From assembly GCA_021808445.1 (NCBI GenBank), contig JAKBBP010000030.1:1-33191 (forward strand): a stretch of DNA of 33,191 nt, written 5' to 3'. The notes beneath the pieces were generated by a model, which did no database searches, had not been told where the DNA came from, and was given only the letters and a program-made list of their open reading frames with translations. A program made the translations under genes and the position numbers. The stretch is from Pseudomonadota bacterium. Lineage in GTDB: Bacteria > Pseudomonadota > Gammaproteobacteria > Burkholderiales > Burkholderiaceae_C. Position 1 is the first letter of the stretch. The number at the start of each line of letters is the position of its first letter. Positions 4,306-28,070 of the stretch are shown here, piece by piece.

Positions 4306-5981
4306 TGCCCATGCGCCAGTCCTGTTCCGTGCGCGTCCTGGCCCTGCGCAGCCTGGGCCCGCTGCTCCTGGGCTGCGCCGCCACGGCCGCGCTCGCCGCC
4401 ACGCCGCTGCCGCCCACGCTCAGCCCAGGCCTGCTCAACAAGCAGGGCCAGGGCAACCTGAACCAGCTGGAGCAGAACAACGCGCTCCCCAAGCCCGCCT
4501 CGCCCCTGCAGGCCACGCCGCCCGCGCCCGCCGCGTCCGGCGCACAGGGGCCCAGATTCCTGCTGCGGGGGGTGCGTGTCGACCCCACACCCTTCCTGAC
4601 GCGCCGGGAGATCGACGCGGTCACCTCGCCCCATGTGGGGCGCCCGGCCAGCATCGCCACGTTGCGCCGCATGGTGGCCGAGCTGAACCAGGTGCTGGCG
4701 CGCAAGCACGAGGTCACGGTGTCGGCCTATCTGCCGCCCCAGACCATTTCCGGCGGGGTGGTGCACATCGCGGTGCTGCAGGGTCGCCTGGGGCAACTGG
4801 CGGTGAGCGGTACCCGGCACCTGGCACCGTCCTTCGTGCGCGACTTCGTCGCGCTGCAGCCCGGCCAGGTGGTGAACCTGCCGCGGGTGTCCGATGATCT
4901 GGCGCGGTTCAACGACACGGGCCTGGCGCGCATCCAGGCGCTGCTCAAGCCGGGCGCGCGTTTCGGGCTTACCGACATCGAGCTGGCCGTCACCGAGCCG
5001 CCGCGCAATCTCCTGCAGGTGTTCCTGGACAACCAGGGCGTGTCCGCCGTGGGCCGCGATGAGGCGGGAGTCCTGTACCAGCTCTATGCCCCGGCGGGCA
5101 TCGACGACCGGCTCACGCTGTACGCGCTCAAGTCCCGCGGCAACGAAATGGGCAGCCTGGCCTACAACCTGCCCATCAACGCCTCGGGCGGGCGCGCCGG
5201 CATCAGCCTGAGCTCGGGGAAGATCCACGATGTCTCCGGCATCTACCAGCAGCTGCAGGTCTCGGGCTGGTCCAACAGCCTGTCGGCCAACCTCGCGCAG
5301 CCGGTCTACGTGGGGCAGGACTGGATCGTTCTGGGTACCGGCTCGCTGAGCTGGGCCAACGCCAAGTCCTTCGAGCTGGGCACCCTGGTGAGTTCCGACA
5401 GCGCCACCACCGAGTCCCTGGGCCTGAAGACCGGCTACACGGCGCCCGGGCTGAGCGCGGGCGCCACCCTCACCGGAAGTTTCGTGCAGTCGGCCAGCGA
5501 GGTCAGCGGGCAGCACAGCGACTTCGAGTTGCTGGGCGGGACCCTGTACGCGCGGCGCGTGCTGCCCAAGGGGCTGTTCGGCGTGGCCTCGGCCGCCTGG
5601 CAGGTGTCCTCGCAGCAGACCATCCCCGGCGGGCAGCTGTTCCAGGTCGGCGGCCCCACCACGGTGCGCGGCTATCCGGCCAACGCGGTGGCCGGCCCCA
5701 GCGGCTATTACGCGCAGTTCGAACTGCACCATGGCTTCGAGCTGCCCAGCGCCACCGGCGCGCCGGGCCCCACGCTGGACGGTTTCGTGTTCCTGGACCA
5801 GGGCGGAGTGTTCAACCACTATCCGCGTCACCAGGACCTGCGCTCGGTGGGGGTGGGATGCAACTGGCCCCTGTGGCCGGGCGTGCGTGCGGCCTTCACC
5901 CTGGGCGTCCCGCTGGAGACCACGGTGTACGGCCAGTCGGGCTCGGAGGCCTATTTCAGCCTGACGGCGCGTCTCCTGTAG
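4305..5981 (+). CDS. TpsB outer-membrane transporter (ShlB/FhaC/HecB family)
   Basis: This is the outer-membrane beta-barrel partner that secretes the preceding TpsA protein. The start ATG overlaps the TpsA stop (TGATG), so the two are translationally coupled; GTG at 4302 and ATG at 4311 are alternatives. A signal peptide covers about residues 1-30 (hydrophobic LGPLLLGCAATAALA). A Gln/Pro-rich linker follows, which is normal in TpsB. POTRA-type sequence runs from about residue 86 to 172, starting FLLRGVRVDPTPFL and including GGVVHIAVLQGRLG. The rest is barrel, with the Omp85/TpsB signature VRGY at residues 454-457 in GGPTTVRGYPANAV. The length, 558 residues, is usual for the family. The last strand ends FSLTARLL, with Leu rather than the commoner terminal Phe. 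No defect is seen, so the pair looks functional. Confidence 0.93.
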   Translation: MPMRQSCSVRVLALRSLGPLLLGCAATAALAATPLPPTLSPGLLNKQGQGNLNQLEQNNALPKPASPLQATPPAPAASGAQGPRFLLRGVRVDPTPFLTRREIDAVTSPHVGRPASIATLRRMVAELNQVLARKHEVTVSAYLPPQTISGGVVHIAVLQGRLGQLAVSGTRHLAPSFVRDFVALQPGQVVNLPRVSDDLARFNDTGLARIQALLKPGARFGLTDIELAVTEPPRNLLQVFLDNQGVSAVGRDEAGVLYQLYAPAGIDDRLTLYALKSRGNEMGSLAYNLPINASGGRAGISLSSGKIHDVSGIYQQLQVSGWSNSLSANLAQPVYVGQDWIVLGTGSLSWANAKSFELGTLVSSDSATTESLGLKTGYTAPGLSAGATLTGSFVQSASEVSGQHSDFELLGGTLYARRVLPKGLFGVASAAWQVSSQQTIPGGQLFQVGGPTTVRGYPANAVAGPSGYYAQFELHHGFELPSATGAPGPTLDGFVFLDQGGVFNHYPRHQDLRSVGVGCNWPLWPGVRAAFTLGVPLETTVYGQSGSEAYFSLTARLL

Positions 5982-6018
5982 GCGGGGCGGGTACCGGCCG
6001 CGCGCGCTACGGCCAGCG

Positions 6019-7622
<1,604 letters not shown>

Positions 7623-7680
7623 CTAGGCGCGCGGGAAGCGGGGAGTCTTGCTCCAGGTGAAAGGTTTCGCGAAGGGGCGC

Positions 7681-8643
7681 TCAGGTTCCCGCCAGCAGGC
7701 TGGCGAATCGCGCCATGTCCACGTTGCCGCCGCTGAGCAACACTCCCACGCGCTGGCCGCGCAGCCGTGCGCCCATGCGACGGGCGGCGGCCAGTCCCAG
7801 GCAGCCGGTGGGCTCGACCACCAGTTTCATGCGCTCGGCCAGGAAGCGCATGGTGTCGACCAGCTCGGAATCGCTGACGGTGAGGATGTCGGCGACCTCG
7901 CGCTGGATGATGGGGAAGGTCAGTGTGCCCAGGTGCTGGGTCTGTGCTCCGTCAGCAATCGTCCGAGGCGTTTCGATGTGCACGATGGAGCCGCTGCGCA
8001 GCGAGCGGCGGCCGTCGTCGCCGGCTTCCGGCTCGACACCGTAGAGCGCGCAGCCGGGCGCCAGCGCCTGGCGGGCCAGGGCGCTGCCGGACAGCAGCCC
8101 GCCGCCGCCCAGGGGCACGAACAGCGCGTCGAGCTCGCCCACTTCCTCGAAGAGTTCCCGCGCCGCGGTGCCCTGGCCGCAGATCACGTCGGGATGATCG
8201 TAGGGCGGGATCAGGGTGAGCCCGTCACGTTCCGCCAGCTGGCGGCCGATCTCCTCGCGGTCCTCGCGGTAGCGGTCGTAGGTCACCACCCGGCCTCCAT
8301 AGCCCCGCGTGGCCGCCATCTTCGCGGCCGGCGCGTCCTCGGGCATCAGGATGGTCGCGGGGATGCCCAGAAGGCTGGCCGACAGCGCGATGGCCTGCGC
8401 GTGGTTGCCCGAGGAGAAGGTCACCACCCCGGCCTTGCGCCGGGCCGGCTCCAGGCTGGCCAGGGCATTGAAGGCGCCGCGGAACTTGAAGGCCCCCATG
8501 CGCTGAAGGTTCTCGCATTTGAGATGCGCGCGGGCCCCCAGCTCCGCATCCAGCGTGCGTGAGCGCGCCACCGGCGTGCGATGGGCGTGTCCTTCGATAC
8601 GGCGCGCCGCAGCGAGCACGCCGTCGTAGTTGGCTTCGTTCAT
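7681..8643 (-). CDS. PLP-dependent ammonia-lyase (serine/threonine dehydratase-like; threo-3-hydroxyaspartate or serine racemase type)
   Basis: A 320-residue fold-type II PLP enzyme. The PLP lysine is K53 in MGAFKFRGAFNA. The substrate-binding SSGNHAQAIA loop lies near residues 76-85 and the PLP-phosphate glycine loop is GGGGLLSG. Family members deaminate serine, threonine or threo-3-hydroxyaspartate, or racemise serine. There is no C-terminal ACT domain, so it is the short catabolic or racemase kind and not feedback-regulated biosynthetic IlvA. It ends LLSGGNVDMARFA, as in short threonine dehydratases. It may share a transcript with the CoA-transferase gene downstream (gap about 95 bases). 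Upstream is a 113-bp divergent region shared with the cytochrome gene. Substrate is uncertain. A distant relative with the same fold lies at 19053-20054. Confidence 0.85.
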   Translation of the reverse strand: MNEANYDGVLAAARRIEGHAHRTPVARSRTLDAELGARAHLKCENLQRMGAFKFRGAFNALASLEPARRKAGVVTFSSGNHAQAIALSASLLGIPATILMPEDAPAAKMAATRGYGGRVVTYDRYREDREEIGRQLAERDGLTLIPPYDHPDVICGQGTAARELFEEVGELDALFVPLGGGGLLSGSALARQALAPGCALYGVEPEAGDDGRRSLRSGSIVHIETPRTIADGAQTQHLGTLTFPIIQREVADILTVSDSELVDTMRFLAERMKLVVEPTGCLGLAAARRMGARLRGQRVGVLLSGGNVDMARFASLLAGT

Positions 8644-8756
8644 GAATCGTTACGTTCCGCTGCCTGGGTGCGCCGCGTTTCTTGCGGTCGATCAACGGAA
8701 AATGTAGCAGTCTGAACCATACTGTGCGGTTCGCACGGCCTCGGCACGGGAGCTCC

Positions 8757-9617
8757 ATGATGCGCATGTCCCCACTTCTCGCACTGGCCCTCGCGGCCTC
8801 GGCCACGGCCACGGTCTCGGCCGCCCCCCTGGCAGACCTGCCCGCCGGCCGGCTGGGCCAGGCCGTGCAGCATGGTCACGACATGATCGTGAACCCCGGC
8901 GCCGACCCGGACATGAAGGCCTACGTGGGCAATGCGCTGAGTTGCGCCAACTGCCACACCGATGCCGGGAACAACGAGCGACCGGGCAATTTCCGGTCCA
9001 CGGCCGGCCGATATCCCTCGTATTCGAAACGCGAGGACGCCGTCATCACCCTGGAAGATCGCATCGCCAACTGTTTCATGCGCAGCATGAACGGCATGCG
9101 TCCGGGCACCGACAGCCGCGTCGTGGTGGACATGGCGGCCTACATCAGCTGGCTGGACCGCGGCAAGCCGATCCTGGCGCCGCAGCCGCCCGCCGCTGCC
9201 GATCCCTACCCGGCGATGCTCCATGCGGCCGGCCGCGGCGACGTCGTCGCCGGCGCCGGGGTGTACAGGGCCGAATGCGCATCCTGCCACGGCGCCACCG
9301 GGGCAGGCGTGAGTGGAAGCTTTCCGCCGCTGTGGGGCCCCGACAGCTACAACGCGGGCGCGGGCCTGGCCAACGTGGCCAAGCTTGCTCGCTGGGTGAA
9401 GGGCAACATGCCTCTGGGCAATGCCCATCTGGATGAGAAGCAGGCTTTCCAGGTGGCCTTGTTCGTGGACACTCAGGCCCGGCCGGATTTCGTGCTTTCG
9501 CAACACCTGCCAGCCGGCATCCGGCCCCAGGACTACAACGCCCAGGTGCGCAGCGAAACCGACACGGTCGAGAGCAATCTGCGCAAGGCGGGGCTGTCGC
9601 TGATGGCCTTGCGCTGA
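8757..9617 (+). CDS. tsdA: Thiosulfate dehydrogenase-like diheme cytochrome c (TsdA family)
   Basis: TsdA couples two thiosulfate molecules into tetrathionate, or runs in reverse, in the periplasm. The 286-residue product has a signal peptide (about residues 1-22, ending TVSA-AP). There are two haem c sites, CANCH at 63-67 and CASCH at 174-178. Cys106, in DRIANCFMRSMNG, sits where TsdA enzymes place the unusual cysteine that ligates the catalytic haem. Met218, in GNMPLGNA, fits the Met ligand of haem 2. ATG 8757 is chosen because GGGAG lies five bases before it and the signal peptide begins there; an upstream in-frame ATG would add a hydrophilic leader. No tsdB or sox genes adjoin it, so the electron acceptor is unknown. 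Direction of reaction cannot be told from sequence. Confidence 0.85.
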   Translation: MMRMSPLLALALAASATATVSAAPLADLPAGRLGQAVQHGHDMIVNPGADPDMKAYVGNALSCANCHTDAGNNERPGNFRSTAGRYPSYSKREDAVITLEDRIANCFMRSMNGMRPGTDSRVVVDMAAYISWLDRGKPILAPQPPAAADPYPAMLHAAGRGDVVAGAGVYRAECASCHGATGAGVSGSFPPLWGPDSYNAGAGLANVAKLARWVKGNMPLGNAHLDEKQAFQVALFVDTQARPDFVLSQHLPAGIRPQDYNAQVRSETDTVESNLRKAGLSLMALR

Positions 9618-9724
9618 GCGCGGCCCCATCACCGGGGCGCGGGAAGGGTGACTTGGCATCGACGGCGCCAGGGTTGGATGTCCGTGGCTAAAGTGCCGCC
9701 GGTGTCCCGTTCCCGGAGCCCGCG

Positions 9725-11647
9725 ATGCCATCGCCTTCCCAGGAAGCCTCCAACCAGTTCGCGCTGCTCGGGCAGCGCCGCTTCGCGCCATTTTTCGCGA
9801 CCCTGCTTCTCGGCGCCGCCAACGACAACCTGCTCAAGTTCGCGTTCACCGTGCTGGTGACCTACCAGCTGCAGGTGCAGTGGCTGCCATCGCGCACCGC
9901 GGGCCTGTGGATCGGTGCGGTGTTCATCGCGCCCTTCGTCCTGTTCTCCGCCAGCAGCGGGCAGCTGGCCGACAAGTTCGACAAGGCCCGGCTGATCCGC
10001 CGGGTCAAGGACCTGGAGATCGCGATCATGGTCCTGGCCGTCTGGGGCTTCGCACACCATGCCGCGGGATGGCTGCTGGCCTGCGTGTTCCTCATGGGTC
10101 TGCACTCCACGCTGTTCGGGCCTGTCAAGTACGCCTACCTCCCCGCCCATCTGCGCGAGCGCGAACTCACCGGCGGCAACGGCATGGTCGAGACGGGAAC
10201 CTTCGTGGCCATCCTGCTGGGCAACCTGGCCGGTGGCCTGCTGATGACCCTGCCCTGGGCGGGCGCGCCCCAGGTGGGATGGGCCTGCCTGGCGCTGGCG
10301 CTGCTGGGGCGCGCGGCGGCGAGTCGCATCCCGGACACGCCGCCCACCGATCCCGCGCTGCGCCTGAGTGCCAACCCACTGGGCGAGACCTGGCGCAATC
10401 TGCGCCTGGCGCGCGGCAAGCCCGTCGTGTTCCGCTCGCTGCTGGGCATCAGCTGGATGTGGTTCTTCGGCGCCGTGTTCCTGAGCCAGTTCCCCAGTTT
10501 CGCCAGGGAGGTGCTGCACGGAGACGTCCAGGTGGCCTCGTTCCTGCTGGTGGTGTTCTCGGTGGGCATCGCCACGGGCTCGCTGCTGTGCGAAAGCCTG
10601 GGACGACGCCACGTGGAAATCGGCCTGGTTCCGCTGGGAGCGCTGGGCATGAGCCTCTTCGCGATCGACCTGTACTTCGCCTCGCGCTCCCTGCCGCCGG
10701 CCTCCGGGCCGGGCCTGCGCGACTTCCTGGCGGCCGCCCCGAACTGGCGGGTCCTGGCCGACCTGGCGCTGCTCAGCCTGAGCACGGGGCTGTACAGCGT
10801 GCCCATGTACGCGCTGGTGCAATGGCGTTCCCAGCCTTCCCACCGCGCGCGCATCATCGCGGCGAACAACATCCTCAATGCCTTGTTCATGGTGGCCAGC
10901 GCGGGCTTCGCGTCCTGCCTGCTCGGCCTCGGCTGCTCGGTCCCGCAGGTGTTCCTGTGCACGGGCCTGCTCAACGCGGCGGTCGCGGTCTACATTTTCC
11001 TGCTCGTGCCCGAGTACCTGCTGCGGTTCGTCGCATGGGTGCTCACCCATCTGGTGTACCGCTTCCAGGTGCAGGGCGCGGCGGCGATCCCGGCCGACGG
11101 CCCCGCGGTGCTGGTCTGCAATCACGTGAGCTTCGTCGATGCCGTGCTGCTCATGGCGGCCAGTCCGCGGCCGGTTCGCTTCCTGATGGATCACGGAATG
11201 TTCCGGACCCCGCTGCTGGGCTGGCTTTTCCGGCTGTCGCGGGCCATTCCGGTGGCCCCGCGCGAGGCTGAACCCCAGGTCTACGAAGCAGCCTTCGAGC
11301 AGGCTCTGCGTACCCTGCGCGACGGAGACCTGCTGGCCATCTTCCCGGAAGGCAGCATCACCCGCGACGGCCGCCTGCAGGCGTTCCGGCCCGGCGTGCT
11401 GCGCATCCTGGAGCGCGCGCAGGCCGAGGGTCTGGCCGTGCCGGTGGTCCCCATGGCCCTGACCGACATGTGGGGTTCCTTCTTCAGCCGCATCGAGGTG
11501 CGCCAGGGCCGCAATGTCGCGATGGTGCGGCCCCTGCGCCGCGGCTGGATGAATCGCGTGGGCCTGCGCGTGGGCGAGCCGCTGCAGGCAGGGAAGCTCA
11601 GTTGCGAATCCCTGCGCGACGCGGTGCGGCGCCTCGCGCAGGCCTGA
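9725..11647 (+). CDS. Fused MFS (LplT-like) transporter and PlsC-type lysophospholipid acyltransferase
   Basis: A 640-residue inner-membrane protein in two parts. Residues about 15-430 are an MFS transporter opening FFATLLLGAANDNLLKFAF, as in the lysophospholipid flippase LplT. Residues about 435-640 are a PlsC/LPLAT acyltransferase with NHVSFVD (His467 to Asp472, HX4D) and FPEGS at 540-544. In enterobacteria LplT and Aas cooperate to flip lysophospholipids inward and re-acylate them; this fusion likely does both steps in one chain. Unlike the longer triple fusions, it stops after PlsC and has no acyl-ACP synthetase (AMP-binding) part, so the acyl donor must be supplied by another protein. 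The start has GGAG eight to ten bases upstream. It is convergent with the EIIC-EAL gene, with an 8-base gap. Confidence 0.88.
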   Translation: MPSPSQEASNQFALLGQRRFAPFFATLLLGAANDNLLKFAFTVLVTYQLQVQWLPSRTAGLWIGAVFIAPFVLFSASSGQLADKFDKARLIRRVKDLEIAIMVLAVWGFAHHAAGWLLACVFLMGLHSTLFGPVKYAYLPAHLRERELTGGNGMVETGTFVAILLGNLAGGLLMTLPWAGAPQVGWACLALALLGRAAASRIPDTPPTDPALRLSANPLGETWRNLRLARGKPVVFRSLLGISWMWFFGAVFLSQFPSFAREVLHGDVQVASFLLVVFSVGIATGSLLCESLGRRHVEIGLVPLGALGMSLFAIDLYFASRSLPPASGPGLRDFLAAAPNWRVLADLALLSLSTGLYSVPMYALVQWRSQPSHRARIIAANNILNALFMVASAGFASCLLGLGCSVPQVFLCTGLLNAAVAVYIFLLVPEYLLRFVAWVLTHLVYRFQVQGAAAIPADGPAVLVCNHVSFVDAVLLMAASPRPVRFLMDHGMFRTPLLGWLFRLSRAIPVAPREAEPQVYEAAFEQALRTLRDGDLLAIFPEGSITRDGRLQAFRPGVLRILERAQAEGLAVPVVPMALTDMWGSFFSRIEVRQGRNVAMVRPLRRGWMNRVGLRVGEPLQAGKLSCESLRDAVRRLAQA

Positions 11648-22094: not shown

Positions 22095-23090
22095 TCACGC
22101 TTGCTCGACAGGCGGCGCCGATCCGATCATGTGCATGATCAGGCGGATCAGCACGTTCTTGTCCTTCGGATCCGACTCGGCGACCAGCAAGGTCAGCGCG
22201 GCCAGTCCGACATCGTTGATGACCGGGGCGCCCGTGGCGTCGAGGAGCCGGTCGTTGCGGTGCAGGAAGTCGACGAAAAGAAGGGCAGCGCTGCGCTTGT
22301 TGCCGTCGGCGAAGGGATGGTTCTTCACGACGAAATAGAGCAAGTGCGCCGCCTTCGATTCGATGTCCGGGTAGGCGGCTTCGCCGAAAGCGGTCTGCTT
22401 CAGGTTGCCGAGGATGGCAGCCAGCGCATCGCCGCGCTCCTGTCCGAACAGTCCGCTTGCGTCGCCTCGGCACTGCAGGTCGCGTTTCAGGCCGGCGATG
22501 CGCTAGCGCGCCTGCTCGACAGTGGGAAGAACGCCGCCCGGGTGGACTTCGGGTTCGGTGAGCAGGCCTTCGTCGTAGCGCTGCAGCCACAGGAAGGTCC
22601 GGGTGCAGCGGCTGACCAGGTCGATCAATCCACGGCCGGCTTCGAGCGCGAGGTGCTCGCTTAGGGCCGTACGACGAATAAGTTGGAGTGCAGCCTCAAG
22701 TTCGTGAGCATTCGCTTCGAACCGCTGTGCATTGATCGTGTATCCGTGCGACAGGTGTGTTCGGAGCAGGGCTGTTGCCCAATGGCGGAATTGCACACCC
22801 TTCTTGGAGTTGACGCGGTATCCGACCGATATGATCGAGTCGAGGTTGTACTGTCTGAGCCGTCGTCTGACCTGACGGGAGCCTTCCCGCTGAACGACCG
22901 AGGATTCCTCGGTTGTTGCTGCCTCCTCCAGTTCGGCATCCGCGTAGATGCGCTTGAGGTGCATGCCGATATTGTCTGTCGAGGTATCGAACAGCTCGGC
23001 CATTTGTTTCTGGCTGAGCCATACCGTTTCGCGGTCGACCCGCACCTCGACGCGGCCCTGCGGTGACTGGTAGATGGCGATATCGGTCAT
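22095..23090 (-). pseudogene. RhuM-Fic family gene interrupted by one amber codon
   Basis: The frame from ATG 23090 encodes a RhuM-like N-terminal part (VWLSQKQMAELFDTSTDNIGMHL, then NLDSIISVGYRVNSKKGVQFR at about residues 89-109). It is stopped by TAG at 22503-22505. The same frame continues without any other stop and reads RIAGLKRDLQ, FGQERGDALAAILGNL, YPDIESKAAHLLYF and the Fic motif HPFADGNKR, ending at TGA 22095-22097. Restoring one codon gives 331 residues, the usual length of RhuM-Fic proteins, so the damage is a single nonsense change or a sequencing error. Fic proteins transfer AMP or similar groups to targets; with the Fic motif downstream of the stop, the product as written would be inactive. 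A HepT remnant follows upstream. Confidence 0.85.
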
Positions 23091-23157
23091 CGTGCGATGT
23101 TCCAAGACTGGGGCGCGGGCGTCCGAGCATGACCAGACTGCTGGCAACCACCGCATC

Positions 23158-23328
23158 TTACGGGCGCAGGCCGACCCTTCGCGCCGTGTGCGCGATCGCG
23201 CGAATCCGTTCGAGGCACGGCGGAACGAGGGTCGTGACGGCGTCCCGGACGATTTCGAGCGTGAGCGTCCTGTAGCCATGCACGAGCCGGTTGCGCATTC
23301 CGGCGATGCGCAGAGCCGGCAGAAGAGC
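23158..23328 (-). pseudogene. C-terminal remnant of a HepT (HEPN, DUF86) toxin gene
   Basis: About 56 codons in this frame read like the C-terminal third of HepT, with IAGMRNRLVHGY. This contains the RX4HXY motif of HEPN RNase toxins (Arg, His and the Tyr that MntA antitoxins AMPylate), followed by LEIVRDAV, as in intact family members. The first two thirds and any MntA nucleotidyltransferase gene are missing: upstream the frame runs into unrelated sequence just before the polyketide synthase gene. It probably marks an insertion or deletion boundary. Confidence 0.7.
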
Positions 23329-23428
23329 GCGGCAGTGCCCAAACCTTGATACCCTCGGCCAAGCCCGGTGTCTCGCGCTGCGCGCGGCTGCCGGCGGAGC
23401 AGCGAACGCTTGCGAGGACGATCGACCC

Positions 23429-24502
23429 ATGTACCTGCGCGGAATCGGCACGGCGACCCCCCCGGGACGCTACACGAAGGCGGAGTGCTACGACGCATTC
23501 CGGAAGTCCGACTGGTTCGCCAGGCTCGATGCGCGCTCGCACTTCATCGCCAGCCGGGTCCTGCTGCGTGACAATGGCATGCAGGCGCGGCACCTGGCCC
23601 TCGACACCCTGGACGACGTGTTCACGATCGAGCCGGACGTCCTGGCGCAGCGCTTTCTCGAGCACGCCCCCGCGCTGGCGACGCAGGCCGCGGAGCGGGC
23701 GCTGGCCCGGGCCGGGCTCGCCAGCGCGGACATCGGCGCCATCGTCGTCAGTACTTGCACCGGATATCTCTGTCCGGGGCTGTCGGGCTACCTGGTGGAG
23801 CGTCTGGGTCTGCGCCGCGACGTGCTGGCCTTCGACCTGGTCGGGCAGGGTTGCGCCGCCGCCCTGCCCAACATGCAGCTCGGACGGACACTGCTGGCCT
23901 CGGGCGCTGCCGAGCATGTGCTGTCGGTCTGCGTGGAGGTGTGCAGCGCGGCGATGTATCTCGACGACGACCCCGGCGTGCTGATCAGCGCCTGCCTGTT
24001 CGGTGATGGGGCCGGTGCCGCCGTCCTGTCCCATGCCCCGCCGGACGCAGGGCGCCGGATCGCCTGGAAGGACAGCATGTCGCTGATCGAACCCGCCGCA
24101 CGCAAGGCCTTGATGTTCGAGCAGCGCGACGGCATGCTGCGCAACGTTCTCACGCGCGCGGTGCCGGTGCTGGCGGCCGAGCATGCGCAGCGCATCCTGG
24201 GGGCCGTGCTGGAGCGCGTGGGACTCGGGCAGCACGACATCAGCACCTGGATCGTGCATGCCGGCGGACGAGACGTGCTCATCGAGCTGGAGCGCCGACT
24301 CGGTCTGTCGTCGCAGGACTTGCGCTACAGCTCGGCCATGCTCCGCGAGTATGGAAATCTGTCGAGCGCCTTCGTCTATTTCGTGCTGGAGGCCGCGCTG
24401 GCCGACCACGCACCGGAGGGCTGGTGGTGGCTGTGCTCCTTCGGCGCCGGCTTCAGCTGCCACGGCGCGTTGCTCGAGGTCGGCGCCGGGGTCCGCGCAT
24501 GA
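23429..24502 (+). CDS. Type III polyketide synthase (chalcone/stilbene synthase family)
   Basis: A 357-residue cytosolic enzyme that extends an acyl starter with malonyl units and cyclises the product. The catalytic triad is present: Cys142 in DLVGQGCAAALPN, His277 in IVHAGG and Asn310 in REYGNLSSAFVYFVL. Two usually conserved spots differ. The His motif HPGG reads HAGG, and the GFGPG loop before the C-terminus reads SFGAGFSCHG (338-346). The N-terminus MYLRGIGTATPP is the normal family opening; in-frame codons further upstream overlap the HepT remnant and are not credible. It leads a five-gene operon and overlaps the next gene by ATGA. The dedicated ACP and ketosynthase downstream suggest an ACP-bound starter, as with bacterial alkylresorcinol or alkylpyrone synthases; the actual product is unknown. 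Confidence 0.9.
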   Translation: MYLRGIGTATPPGRYTKAECYDAFRKSDWFARLDARSHFIASRVLLRDNGMQARHLALDTLDDVFTIEPDVLAQRFLEHAPALATQAAERALARAGLASADIGAIVVSTCTGYLCPGLSGYLVERLGLRRDVLAFDLVGQGCAAALPNMQLGRTLLASGAAEHVLSVCVEVCSAAMYLDDDPGVLISACLFGDGAGAAVLSHAPPDAGRRIAWKDSMSLIEPAARKALMFEQRDGMLRNVLTRAVPVLAAEHAQRILGAVLERVGLGQHDISTWIVHAGGRDVLIELERRLGLSSQDLRYSSAMLREYGNLSSAFVYFVLEAALADHAPEGWWWLCSFGAGFSCHGALLEVGAGVRA

Positions 24503-25245
24503 CGCCACTGCCGCGCATCGTCGGCGCCGAGATCCTGGATGGTCTGGGCGAAGACGACCCCGCCGCGAGGCATTCCCGGCGGGACCTGCGGCGCGTGCAT
24601 CGCATCATGGGCACCTGCTCCATCCTGTTGCGCACCATGCGTTCGTGGGCCTTGCCTGGTAGCTCGTCGGCGCCGCTGCGCGTGCTCGAGCTTGGCGCCG
24701 GGGATGGCAGCCTGATGCTGCGGGTGGCCCATGCCCTGGCACCGCGGTGGCCGCGCGTGGAACTCACGCTGCTGGATCGTCAGGCTCTGGTCGAGCCCGA
24801 CACGCTGCGGCAATACGCCAGTCTCGGCTGGACTGCGGTGGCGAGCCGGATGGACGTGCTGGACTGGGTCGCCGGGCCCGGGCTCATCGAGGGCGCGGGC
24901 GACTCCGGCTTGCGCTGGGACGTGATCGTCGCCAATCTGTTCCTGCACCACTTCCAGGCGGGGGCGCTGGGCGAGCTGCTGCGGGCGGTGGCCGCTCGCT
25001 GCGACCACTTCCTGGCCTGCGAGCCGCGCAGGGCACGCCCTGCGCTGCTGGCCAGCCATCTGGTGCGCGCCATCGGTGCGAATGCGGTCACTCGCGAGGA
25101 CGCCGTGCTGAGCGTACATGCCGGATTCCGGGACCAGGAGCTGTCCGGGCTGTGGCCTCCGGGCGCAGCGGCGTGGGCGACGCGGGAGCATCCCGCAGGC
25201 CCCTTCAGCCACTGTTTCAGCGCGGTGCGGGAGGGGCCGGGATGA
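24499..25245 (+). CDS. SAM-dependent class I methyltransferase of the polyketide operon
   Basis: A 248-residue protein with the SAM-binding motif I VLELGAGDGSL at 62-72, an acidic end of strand beta-2 in LTLLDRQALVEP, and motif IV-like WDVIVANLFLHHF. The fold is that of small-molecule methyltransferases. ATG 24499 overlaps the polyketide synthase stop (ATGA) and its own stop overlaps the next start, so it is translationally coupled. In the Streptomyces srs cluster a methyltransferase and a flavoprotein modify the type III polyketide; the same role is inferred here, although the srs methyltransferase belongs to another family. The methylated atom is unknown. Ubiquinone-type methylation is an alternative, but the setting argues for the polyketide. 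Confidence 0.87.
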   Translation: MTPLPRIVGAEILDGLGEDDPAARHSRRDLRRVHRIMGTCSILLRTMRSWALPGSSSAPLRVLELGAGDGSLMLRVAHALAPRWPRVELTLLDRQALVEPDTLRQYASLGWTAVASRMDVLDWVAGPGLIEGAGDSGLRWDVIVANLFLHHFQAGALGELLRAVAARCDHFLACEPRRARPALLASHLVRAIGANAVTREDAVLSVHAGFRDQELSGLWPPGAAAWATREHPAGPFSHCFSAVREGPG

Positions 25246-26519
25246 TGCAGACCGTATTCGACGCCCTTGTCATCGGTGCCGGGCCGGCGGGTTCGGCGGC
25301 GGCCATCCTCCTGGGGCGTGCAGGGTGGTCGGTCGCGCTGATCGAAAAGCGCGAATTCCCGCGCCGCAAGGTCTGCGGCGAATGTCTGGCCTCGAGCAAC
25401 CTGTCCATCCTGGACGCGCTGGGCATCGGCCGGGCCTACCGCGCAGCCGCCGGCCCCGAGCTGAAGCAGCTGGCTTTCCTGCATGGCGACAGGCACGTGC
25501 TTGCCGAGCTGCCGCCGGGAGACATCGAGGGTCTGCGCTGGGGAAGGGCACTGGGGCGCGACACCATGGATACGCTGTTGCGCGACCAGGCTCTTGCCGC
25601 GGGCGTGACGGTGCTGCAGCCCTGGGCCGTGCAGGCCGTCGACGGTCGGGCGGGCGACTGGCAGGTCCGAGTCCGCGCGGTGGACTCGGGCATCACCCGC
25701 AGGCTTCGCGCCCCGTTGGCCATCGCGGCCCATGGCTCCTGGGAGGTCTTGCCGTCGGGGGGAGCGCGCCGACCCCGGCCGCGGCGCTGCGCGGAGCTGA
25801 TCGCCTTCAAGGCGAACTTCCTGGGCGCGGCGCTTCAGGAGGGCGTGTTGTCGGTGCTCGCGCTGGACGGCGGCTATGGGGGCATGGTGCTGGCCGACGC
25901 AGGCGTGACGACCGTGGCCTGCTGCGTTCGCCGCGATCGCCTCGATGCCTGCCGACGCGCGCGGCCGGAGCTGCGCGCGGGGGAGGCGGTCGAGGCATGG
26001 CTGCGGCAGGACTGCCTGGGGGTGCGCACCGCGCTGGCGAGCGCGCATCGGCAGGGGCCATGGCTGGCGGCCGGGCCACTCGACCCGGGAATCCGGCTGC
26101 GTGCCGACGACGGCATGTTCCGCATTGGCAATGCTGCGGGCGAGGCGCACCCGATCGTCGGCGAGGGCATGAGCATGGCGCTGCAGTCGGCGTGGCTGCT
26201 GAGTACTGAGTTGATCCAGTTCGAAGCGCGGGGCTTGCCGTCGCGCGGCCTGCCGCCAGGCGCGGCATGGCAGGCCGAGGTCGCCGCGCGCTATGCGACG
26301 GCCTGGCGGCGTCAGTTCGCCCCGCGCCTGCGACTTGCCGCGAGCTTCGCCCATGCCGCGATGCACCCGGCGACCTCGGCGCTACTGCTCGGCGCCGCCC
26401 GCATGTGGCCGGGTTTGCTGACCCGGGGTGCGGTCTGGAGCGGCAAGACGCGCGACATCACCCGGCGAGGCGCGACGAACTCGCAGACACGAGGGGACAG
26501 CCATGACGACAACCTTTGA
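25242..26519 (+). CDS. FAD-dependent oxidoreductase (geranylgeranyl reductase/hydroxylase superfamily)
   Basis: A 425-residue flavoprotein with the N-terminal dinucleotide fold VIGAGPAGSAAAILLGRAG (GxGxxG at 12-17), then RRKVCGECLASSNLSIL. That stretch is typical of the geranylgeranyl reductase-like and halogenase-like branch of the p-hydroxybenzoate hydroxylase superfamily. The second FAD motif is near residue 295 (GNAAGEAHPIVGEGMSMAL). The start has GGAGG about eight bases upstream and overlaps the methyltransferase stop (ATGA). Likely jobs are hydroxylation or oxidation of the polyketide ring, or reduction of a double bond; sequence alone does not decide. The lysine and tryptophan signatures of flavin halogenases (WxWxIP) are not seen. 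The ACP gene starts inside its last codons. Confidence 0.87.
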   Translation: MMQTVFDALVIGAGPAGSAAAILLGRAGWSVALIEKREFPRRKVCGECLASSNLSILDALGIGRAYRAAAGPELKQLAFLHGDRHVLAELPPGDIEGLRWGRALGRDTMDTLLRDQALAAGVTVLQPWAVQAVDGRAGDWQVRVRAVDSGITRRLRAPLAIAAHGSWEVLPSGGARRPRPRRCAELIAFKANFLGAALQEGVLSVLALDGGYGGMVLADAGVTTVACCVRRDRLDACRRARPELRAGEAVEAWLRQDCLGVRTALASAHRQGPWLAAGPLDPGIRLRADDGMFRIGNAAGEAHPIVGEGMSMALQSAWLLSTELIQFEARGLPSRGLPPGAAWQAEVAARYATAWRRQFAPRLRLAASFAHAAMHPATSALLLGAARMWPGLLTRGAVWSGKTRDITRRGATNSQTRGDSHDDNL

Positions 26520-26799
26520 GCGCCTGAGCGCGATCCTGGTCAAGGACTACAAGGTCCCGGCGCGGGATCTGGCCCCGGAGACCACCCTCGAAAGCCTGGG
26601 CATCGACTCGCTCGCTGCAGCCGAGCTGTTTTTCAGCGCGGAGGATGTGTTCCACATCACGATGCCGCCCGAGGCGGTGCCTCTGGCCACCCTCGGAGAC
26701 GTGGTGGCCTATCTCGACGCATTGATCGCGCAGCAGCATGGGGGCGATGCCGGTACGGGGCCTGCCGACCAGGGTGCGCGCGGTCCGGAGCTGCCATGA
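26503..26799 (+). CDS. Acyl carrier protein of the polyketide operon
   Basis: A 98-residue carrier protein. The phosphopantetheine attachment site is Ser36 in LGIDSLAAAELFF, with the usual acidic helix II and the ED pair in SAEDVFHI. The opening MTTTFERLSAILVKDYKVP is the normal helix I. After residue 75 it has a Gly/Asp/Gln-rich tail not needed for the fold. GAGG lies about eight bases before ATG 26503, inside the last 17 bases of the flavoprotein gene, and its own stop overlaps the ketosynthase start. It most likely carries the acyl chain made or extended by the adjacent ketosynthase and passes it to the type III synthase; that transfer is inferred. Confidence 0.92.
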   Translation: MTTTFERLSAILVKDYKVPARDLAPETTLESLGIDSLAAAELFFSAEDVFHITMPPEAVPLATLGDVVAYLDALIAQQHGGDAGTGPADQGARGPELP

Positions 26800-28070
26800 G
26801 ACGGGTCGCCGTCACCGGCGCCGGCGTGATCAGCCCTCTGGGAAGCTCGGCCGCCGAGGCCTACGCCAACGCGCATGCCGGGTGTTCCGGGATTCACCGC
26901 ATCGAGGGGGACTTCGCCCATCGCCTGCTCGCGCCCATCGTCGCAAGCGTCAGGAGCTTCGATCCCGGCGATGCCTTCGACCCGCCCCGCTTGCGCATGC
27001 TCGATCGGGTGAGTCAGTTCGCGCTGCTCGCCGCGAGGCAGGCCGTCGCCGAGGCCGGGAGTGGCCTGGAGGACTGTGATCGCAAGCAGGCGGGGGTGTT
27101 CGTGGGCACGGGGATGGGCGGCAGCATCAGCAACGACGAGGGCTATCAGACCCTGTACGGCCAGGCCTCGGACCGCATCAAGCCCTACACCGTACTGCTG
27201 GGCATGCACAACGCCCCTGCCGCCTGGATCAGCCAGGAGCATGGGCTGCTCGGTCCCAGTCTGACCTACTCCACCGCCTGCTCCTCGTCGGCGGTGGCCA
27301 TTGGCGAGGCCTGGCTGCGCATCGCTGGCGGAAGTCTGGACCTGGCGATTGCCGGAGGCGCCGAGGCGCCGCTGGGCTTCGGCTCCCTCAAGGCCTGGGA
27401 AGCGCTGCGCACCGTCGCTGCGATCGATCCCGTCGAAGCCTCCGCATCGTGCAAGCCCTTCGCGCGCGACCGCAGTGGCATGGTCCTCGGCGAAGGGGGC
27501 GCCATGCTGGTGCTGGAGCCCTGGGATCATGCCGTGTCCCGCGGGGCGCCGGTGCTCGGGGAAATCCTCGGCTACGGCCTGAGCACCGATGTCGGCCATA
27601 TCACCCGACCCAGTGTGGAGGGACAGGCCGAGGCCATGCGCGCAGCGCTTCGATCCGCGGCCATCGCGCCTGCGGACATCGACATGATCAACGCGCACGG
27701 AACCGCGACCCTGGCCAACGACCTGGCGGAAACCGCCGCGATCAAGGCCGTGTTCGGCGCACGGGCGCCACGGATCCCGATCAGTGCGACCAAGGCCCTG
27801 CACGGGCATCTGCTGGGCGCCGCAGGGGCGCTGGAATGCGTGCTGTCCTTGCTGGCGCTGCGGCACGGTGCGGCGCTGCCCACGATGCACCTGCGATCCC
27901 CCGATCCCGGCTGTGACCTGGATTACGTGCCCAACGCGGCACGCGAGGGGGTCTGGGCGCGCACGATGATCTCCAATTCCTTCGCCTTCGGCGGCACCAA
28001 CGCGGTACTCGTGCTGCGCGCCGGAAGTCCTGTTCTCCAGGAAACGCAGGGCCGCCCCAAGTTTCCCTGA
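26796..28070 (+). CDS. Beta-ketoacyl-ACP synthase (FabF/KAS II type) of the polyketide operon
   Basis: A 424-residue condensing enzyme with the full Cys-His-His set: Cys162 in STACSSSAVAIG, His301 in NAHGTAT, and Lys333 with His336 in SATKALHGHLLGAAG. The C-terminal glycine stretch is SFAFGGTNAVL. It is therefore expected to be a true extending synthase, not a chain-length factor, which would lack the Cys. No ketoreductase, dehydratase or enoyl reductase gene is in the operon, so a reduced chain would need the general fatty acid enzymes. The SDR at 28096 faces the other way and is not part of the transcript. The start overlaps the ACP stop (ATGA). It is the last gene of the operon. Confidence 0.92.
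   Translation: MRRVAVTGAGVISPLGSSAAEAYANAHAGCSGIHRIEGDFAHRLLAPIVASVRSFDPGDAFDPPRLRMLDRVSQFALLAARQAVAEAGSGLEDCDRKQAGVFVGTGMGGSISNDEGYQTLYGQASDRIKPYTVLLGMHNAPAAWISQEHGLLGPSLTYSTACSSSAVAIGEAWLRIAGGSLDLAIAGGAEAPLGFGSLKAWEALRTVAAIDPVEASASCKPFARDRSGMVLGEGGAMLVLEPWDHAVSRGAPVLGEILGYGLSTDVGHITRPSVEGQAEAMRAALRSAAIAPADIDMINAHGTATLANDLAETAAIKAVFGARAPRIPISATKALHGHLLGAAGALECVLSLLALRHGAALPTMHLRSPDPGCDLDYVPNAAREGVWARTMISNSFAFGGTNAVLVLRAGSPVLQETQGRPKFP

Follow-up and report, generated by a model that had tools for sequence, protein, structure and literature searches.

A type III polyketide synthase (PKS) encoded together with its own acyl carrier protein (ACP) and β-ketoacyl-ACP synthase (KS) raises the question of what the pair does there; namely, whether it makes the starter of the PKS or serves the pathway in some other way. 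The case considered here is a five-gene operon on contig JAKBBP010000030.1 of NCBI GenBank assembly GCA_021808445.1, the whole 33,191-nucleotide stretch of which is referred to as the window. The host is a Thiomonas (Burkholderiales) with a genome of 3.38 Mb. We know of no characterized line of the kind proposed below, in which type II components would lead to a type III enzyme. The genes are:

23429–24502, forward strand: type III PKS, 357 amino acids (aa) (Pfam and NCBIfam models, alignment, Foldseek)
24499–25245, forward strand: class I S-adenosylmethionine-dependent methyltransferase (MT), 248 aa, motif ELGAGDG (matches below cut-off)
25242–26519, forward strand: FAD-dependent oxidoreductase of the monooxygenase, halogenase and geranylgeranyl-reductase superfamily, 425 aa (FAD_binding_3)
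26503–26799, forward strand: ACP, 98 aa, phosphopantetheine serine in GIDSL (PF00550)
26796–28070, forward strand: FabF-type KS, 424 aa, Cys162–His301–His336 (PRK07314)

The sequence-only reading had placed this gene order at 23429–28070, with three ATGA junctions and one 17-base overlap, and both statements are exact to the base: the ATGA overlaps lie at 24499, 25242 and 26796, and the oxidoreductase and ACP genes share positions 26503–26519. Its five protein assignments agree with Pfam and NCBIfam, that of the MT only below both cut-offs. A search across genomes for the same order, as that reading had suggested, found it in 25 loci besides the window; 11 further loci hold PKS–MT–FAD. The ACP and KS genes are both present in the 25 and both absent from the 11, and neither stands alone in any locus that could be judged. 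Because the order is the same in 25 other loci and dN/dS is 0.16–0.34 across the five genes in the one pair measured (the window and locus L028), the gene set is not due to chance. The PKS–MT–FAD trio is a known and widespread kind of cassette, and the ACP–KS pair added to it here looks like a dedicated source of the fatty starter. We consider it an even call that the operon is a self-contained route to a modified phenolic lipid, in which ACP and KS make the acyl-ACP starter of the PKS.

Five-gene carriers include Thiomonas, Accumulibacter, Rhodoferax, Hydrogenophaga and Caballeronia. Within the genus, the PKS occurs in 14 of the 27 other genomes at 79–84% identity (one copy is split over two contigs), and all 12 Thiomonas loci with enough contig carry the five genes in order; in 32 genomes of other genera the PKS matches were weak (best 4 × 10−16) or absent, and the eight placed in a tree are β-ketoacyl-ACP synthases III (KAS III). 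A collection of named genomes yielded 32 loci, 13 of which repeat Thiomonas genomes already counted and were counted once (L042–L050, L056, L068, L070 and L072); the remaining 19 comprise ten five-gene loci, five with PKS–MT–FAD and four that are cut by contig ends or matched in pieces. Since the two peptide patterns behind this search came from Thiomonas sequences, it may overlook remote relatives. Of 399 genomes surveyed within the order, 9 carry the PKS (the window's among them; 7 of 159 genera), the eight other loci being two five-gene and six three-gene; across 398 genomes sampled from the phylum, a distant PKS match at 1 × 10−40 was seen in just two apart from the window's. Loci with a contig end inside the operon (L032, L041, L062 and L071) or matched in pieces only (L073) were left out of the counts. 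L051, in which the ACP is present and the contig ends before the KS, has a five-gene label in the PKS tree and stands outside the 25, and L086 was counted as three-gene although its contig runs just 1.3 kb past the FAD gene.

The five-gene and three-gene labels change five times on the PKS tree, compared with a mean of 9.7 in shuffles (0 of 500 as low), and a three-gene pair (L090 and L091) branches first with the outgroups, weakly (85/66, with 15 of the 40 family rows). From these two features and the single clade formed by the operon KSs (see below), the history would read as one gain of ACP–KS and about four losses. Compared over 20 loci, the five genes give pairwise distance matrices with correlations of 0.84–0.95, a pattern that may reflect a co-inherited unit and is equally expected from shared species history.

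The ACP scores 42.9 bits with PF00550, above the cut-off. The KS scores 394 bits with PRK07314, above the cut-off of 387, and 403 bits with the fabF equivalog, below its 493.75. The phosphopantetheine serine is kept in 21 of 21 aligned ACPs, and the cysteine and both histidines in 20 of 20 aligned KSs, counts in which the Thiomonas five-gene loci are represented by 6 of 12. An ATGA overlap joins the two genes in 19 of the 25 loci (starts chosen by rule), which suggests coupled use, and dN/dS between the window and L028 is 0.34 for the ACP and 0.18 for the KS. All 26 KSs of the operon fall into a single clade (97/86). It is separate from a presumed housekeeping FabF clade, in which each of 15 genomes has one copy, and lies nearer in the tree to KSs found with an ACP next to enzymes of other kinds than to the presumed housekeeping FabF.

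Of all the evidence, these other settings hint most clearly that a partner enzyme receives acyl-ACP from the pair. One lies in the same genome, with a layout that, judged from its genes, is like that of diffusible signal factor (DSF) signalling:

L143 (G000:C34:12000–28330), 5091–11150: DSF-like cluster in which an ACP gene (8506–8829) and a KS gene (8822–10042) run into an RpfF-like crotonase gene

The crotonase scores above the cut-off of PRK08788 and reaches 181 of 550 bits with the RpfF model; the KS there has a long branch, and the cluster also has a divergent response regulator (cyclic di-GMP phosphodiesterase type, below cut-off) and a hybrid kinase. DSF precursors are described as 3-hydroxyacyl-ACPs (PMC5941067). 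Among 14 other Burkholderiales loci, 13 (L098–L103 and L144–L150) have an α/β-hydrolase-like protein beside ACP–KS; the two that were scanned gave weak NCBIfam matches below cut-off, and some of these loci add a HAD-IB phosphatase and a class III aminotransferase. Of 200 genomes sampled from the order, 45 (among them the window's own) have a KS match at an E value of 1 × 10−95 or better, and one group of ACP–KS pairs is a common module in betaproteobacteria. Tentatively, and at rather less than even weight, we suggest that the discrete type II ACP and KAS II form a two-protein module dedicated to feeding acyl groups to a deep-branching type III PKS whose FGPG loop is altered, and that betaproteobacteria may couple the same ACP–KS group, as a plug-in feeder, to various enzymes that consume acyl-ACP (type III PKS, RpfF-like DSF synthase and α/β hydrolase).

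We infer a route in which a host phosphopantetheinyl transferase would charge the private ACP, and the FabF-type KS, with the reductases and dehydratase of the housekeeping fatty acid synthase (FAS), would build or size an acyl (or β-ketoacyl) chain that the type III PKS would receive directly from the ACP. The PKS would add malonyl-CoA about three times and cyclize the product, most likely to a 5-alkylresorcinol; the MT would methylate the ring product on oxygen or carbon, and the FAD enzyme would oxidize the ring, with hydroxylation towards a hydroquinone or quinone likeliest. The lipid may have a role in the host. An ACP-bound starter handed to the type III enzyme was also the mechanism of the sequence-only reading, and it is the likeliest, though not established. 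The idea gains from the five genes forming one unit, from the intact ACP and KS residues and from inheritance with the PKS; it loses from the absence of the pair in 11 of the 36 other loci, and its novelty falls away. Acyl-ACP starters are published for Gcs, SCO7671 and ArsB/ArsC (PMC6274091), a C14 acyl-ACP start is proposed for HidC, and for CylI the supply comes from a free-standing ACP together with type I PKSs (PMC8086630); the mechanism is therefore plausible but not new.

By sequence comparison, the PKS is a divergent member of the type III family. It scores 52–67 bits with the Pfam chalcone, stilbene and RppA models, low yet above cut-off, and Cys142, His277 and Asn310 are kept in 40 of 40 rows of the family alignment. 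The FGPG loop is a hallmark of type III PKSs, not treated here as defining: alanine replaces the proline (FGAG) in all 40 family rows, while every one of the 13 other type III PKSs compared has the proline and none of the 14 KAS III rows does. An HxGG pattern common to both PKS sets is likewise found in 0 of 14 KAS III rows. At the gatekeeper phenylalanine positions, in an alignment to 2-pyrone synthase, the operon PKS has Trp213 and Asn239, which we take to correspond to Phe215 and Phe265 of chalcone synthase. A tree that took in 15 of the 40 family rows groups them with the 13 type III PKSs, apart from the 14 KAS III rows (100/100), and the family branches beside the sampled type III PKSs, themselves a clade (93/82); the deep placement is unsure, the tree program having warned of long branches that meet between this family and the KAS III rows. 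The structural model, a single-domain fold of the KAS III type, has a mean predicted local distance difference test score (pLDDT) of 78.6, low at residues 174–176, 183–188, 226–229 and 235–237, and the 50 Foldseek matches listed of 1,357 are all type III PKSs, the first being Pks11 of M. tuberculosis (TM 0.85).

The first gene could instead encode a KAS III-like initiator that, with the ACP and KS II, forms a mini fatty acid synthase. The alanine of all 40 members would fit this, ACP_syn_III models match the protein as well, and the plasmid record calls the Caballeronia copy a 3-oxoacyl-ACP synthase III C-terminal domain protein. However, type III PKS models score above KAS III models in both Pfam and NCBIfam, the tree and the Foldseek matches side with type III PKSs, and an MT and a FAD enzyme suit an aromatic product better. 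A plain KAS III was rejected by family models, tree and fold, and we hold the mini-synthase to be very improbable. A stronger candidate, although still an unlikely one, is a DpgA-like PKS acting on malonyl units or a short starter, with the acyl group from ACP–KS joined to the aromatic product later. The best NCBIfam model is DpgA and the stretch CSAAM resembles CSAAY of DpgA; in topology tests, a clade of the PKS family with two DpgA-type rows was not rejected (p 0.166), and one clade of the family with the PKSs of other trios and Psychrobacter was (p 0.016). Yet the DpgA score of 167 bits is far under the cut-off of 425, DpgB, DpgC and DpgD are in neither the operon nor the eight neighbouring genes scanned, and the operon is without an acyltransferase or esterase. 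A long-chain tunnel suggested by the PKS pocket residues was not used as evidence; DpgA has similar residues.

That a position beside DpgA, an enzyme that uses no fatty starter, was not rejected is one of several points that weigh against the pair as maker of the starter. The PKS–MT–FAD genes occur without ACP–KS in 11 relatives, so an operon-borne ACP is no fixed requirement of the PKS family. No PKS position separates the 26 five-gene from the 11 three-gene rows (the best overlaps by 22%), and the mean net charge of the PKS is −5.1 versus −4.6. The operon genes include no ketoreductase, dehydratase or thioesterase. Five of the 11 three-gene genomes have, elsewhere, an ACP beside a KS 48–52% identical to the operon KS, and in another three the KS next to the ACP is a weaker match (42–44%); in G071, G125 and G801, also three-gene, no KS at 1 × 10−60 adjoins a match to the operon ACP. 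The idea that such distant pairs stand in for the missing one was dropped, since these KSs are common (the 45 of 200 genomes above). Trio PKSs from planctomycetes were functional in C. glutamicum with no dedicated ACP; the study inferred CoA starters, judged the added methyl to be probably on carbon and left the role of the oxidoreductase open (PMC10896814). Alternatively, the PKS may use housekeeping acyl-ACP or acyl-CoA, as its relatives in three-gene loci have to, with the ACP–KS pair raising supply or shifting chain length and being dispensable: the three-gene version exists in 11 loci, the five label changes would be one gain followed by four losses, no further pair was seen in three of the three-gene genomes, and the planctomycete trios work without one (PMC10896814). 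Against dispensability, 26 loci retain both ACP and KS, the dN/dS values of the one pair measured are those given above, and the two genes overlap in 19 of 25. We regard this account as somewhat unlikely, and retain the pair as maker of the starter as the preferred reading.

The tailoring enzymes give less away. Methyltransf_12 and Methyltransf_23 match the MT below the Pfam cut-off, as does PRK06202 (57.6 bits, below its own); the FAD enzyme scores 66 bits with FAD_binding_3, above cut-off, and 81 bits with GG-red-SF, below. In 13 stretches searched, the MT profile matches the trio MTs of Roseomonas, Methylobacterium, Deinococcus and Psychrobacter (5 × 10−13 to 3 × 10−10), and the FAD profile matches the FAD proteins of the same trios (1 × 10−31 to 2 × 10−9). 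The aspartate of the DG motif usual in such FAD enzymes is missing (HGSW, NGSW and similar), whereas the Deinococcus trio proteins keep it. Flavin halogenases and a flavoprotein rank best among the fold matches of the FAD enzyme, with monooxygenases lower (model pLDDT 78.3), and on this basis it may halogenate; the halogenase motifs FxKxGA and WxWxI were not seen when the sequence was read by eye. Ring hydroxylation is its likeliest role, by analogy with hierridin B, which has a hydroxyl at position 4 and O-methyl groups at 1 and 3 (PMC10896814). Given the planctomycete C-methyl and the open role of the oxidoreductase there, neither O-methylation nor hydroxylation can safely be transferred to the operon.

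How far known systems resemble the operon can be traced gene by gene. The srsABC genes run in the order PKS, methyltransferase, hydroxylase and, to our knowledge, come without ACP–KS. This alkylresorcinol cluster of Streptomyces griseus, likened here by description, has the hydroxylase srsC where the operon has a FAD enzyme (PMC8086630). Clusters of PKS, MT and oxidoreductase are an established type (PMC10896814, PMC8086630), their PKSs producing alkylresorcinols in the planctomycete case and hierridins in the cyanobacterial one (PMC10896814). The hierridin clusters (hidABC and hidC–hidA–hidB) include one arrangement with the operon's order PKS–MT–oxidoreductase (PMC8086630), unlike the planctomycete MT–oxidoreductase–PKS (PMC10896814). 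The passages that describe the hid and planctomycete clusters name neither ACP nor KS as a part (PMC10896814, PMC8086630), whereas the operon has both, conserved. By its description, the HidC clade has methionine at the Phe265 position, compared with Asn239 in the operon PKS (PMC8086630). In the ars operon of Azotobacter vinelandii, the fatty chain goes from ACP to type III PKSs (PMC6274091); the ACP and KS of our operon are separate type II proteins, and a type I FAS, the ars feature, was absent from its genes and the eight neighbours scanned (19.1–32.5 kb). The cylindrocyclophane (cyl) cluster has the free-standing ACP CylB upstream of the type III PKS CylI, with type I PKSs CylD and CylH (PMC8086630) in contrast to the operon's single discrete FabF-type KS. 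Trios of Deinococcus, Roseomonas and Methylobacterium share the order PKS–MT–FAD, with PKSs 28–30% identical to that of the operon, and the stretches read around them gave no hit to its ACP or KS. The trios of these three genera lie on plasmids, and a rearranged one occurs in Psychrobacter (L097, L127, L128, L129 and L130). Searches of the open-licence literature on type III PKSs listed no paper on the five-gene set and none that describes a discrete ACP–KS pair within such an operon; the sequence-only reading, too, knew of no characterized product for the exact set.

Each family of flanking open reading frames recurs in at most 6 of the 32 stretches compared, versus 29 for the PKS, some neighbours being common to closely related loci. 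With flanks this variable, the five genes are the unit, and the operon ends at the KS. The neighbours scanned were:

Upstream: a pyridoxal-phosphate enzyme, AraC/DJ-1 and DJ-1 proteins, and a RhuM-like protein
22506–23498, reverse strand: the RhuM-like protein named above, a RhuM-family (PF13310) frame whose start overlaps the operon start
Downstream: a short-chain dehydrogenase/reductase, an amino acid permease, a DAO oxidase and an Lrp regulator

They do not recur beside Thiomonas operons, save for RhuM-like matches in L029 and L036. The GC content is 0.707 in the operon versus 0.693 in the remaining window, and composition gives no signal on foreign origin; a promoter scan found none, with 0.4 expected in shuffles. 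In Caballeronia sp. SBC2 (L096, 5517–13708), the five genes lie on the 795 kb plasmid pSBC2-3, about 1.5 kb from a site-specific integrase gene, and this siting is a possible route of spread there. The locus of Candidatus Accumulibacter vicinus (L073, 7001–9802) shows matches to PKS 1–135, MT 1–97, FAD 185–404 and the KS in two parts; it may be a decaying copy of the operon or an assembly fault.

If ACP–KS feeds the PKS, the operon would provide a compact system in which to learn how a type III PKS recognizes an ACP, and the sister operons without the pair would be natural controls. It would also define a phenolic-lipid family for Burkholderiales (including Thiomonas and Accumulibacter), the subject of no open-licence paper that we found, and point to what a common betaproteobacterial ACP–KS module may do.

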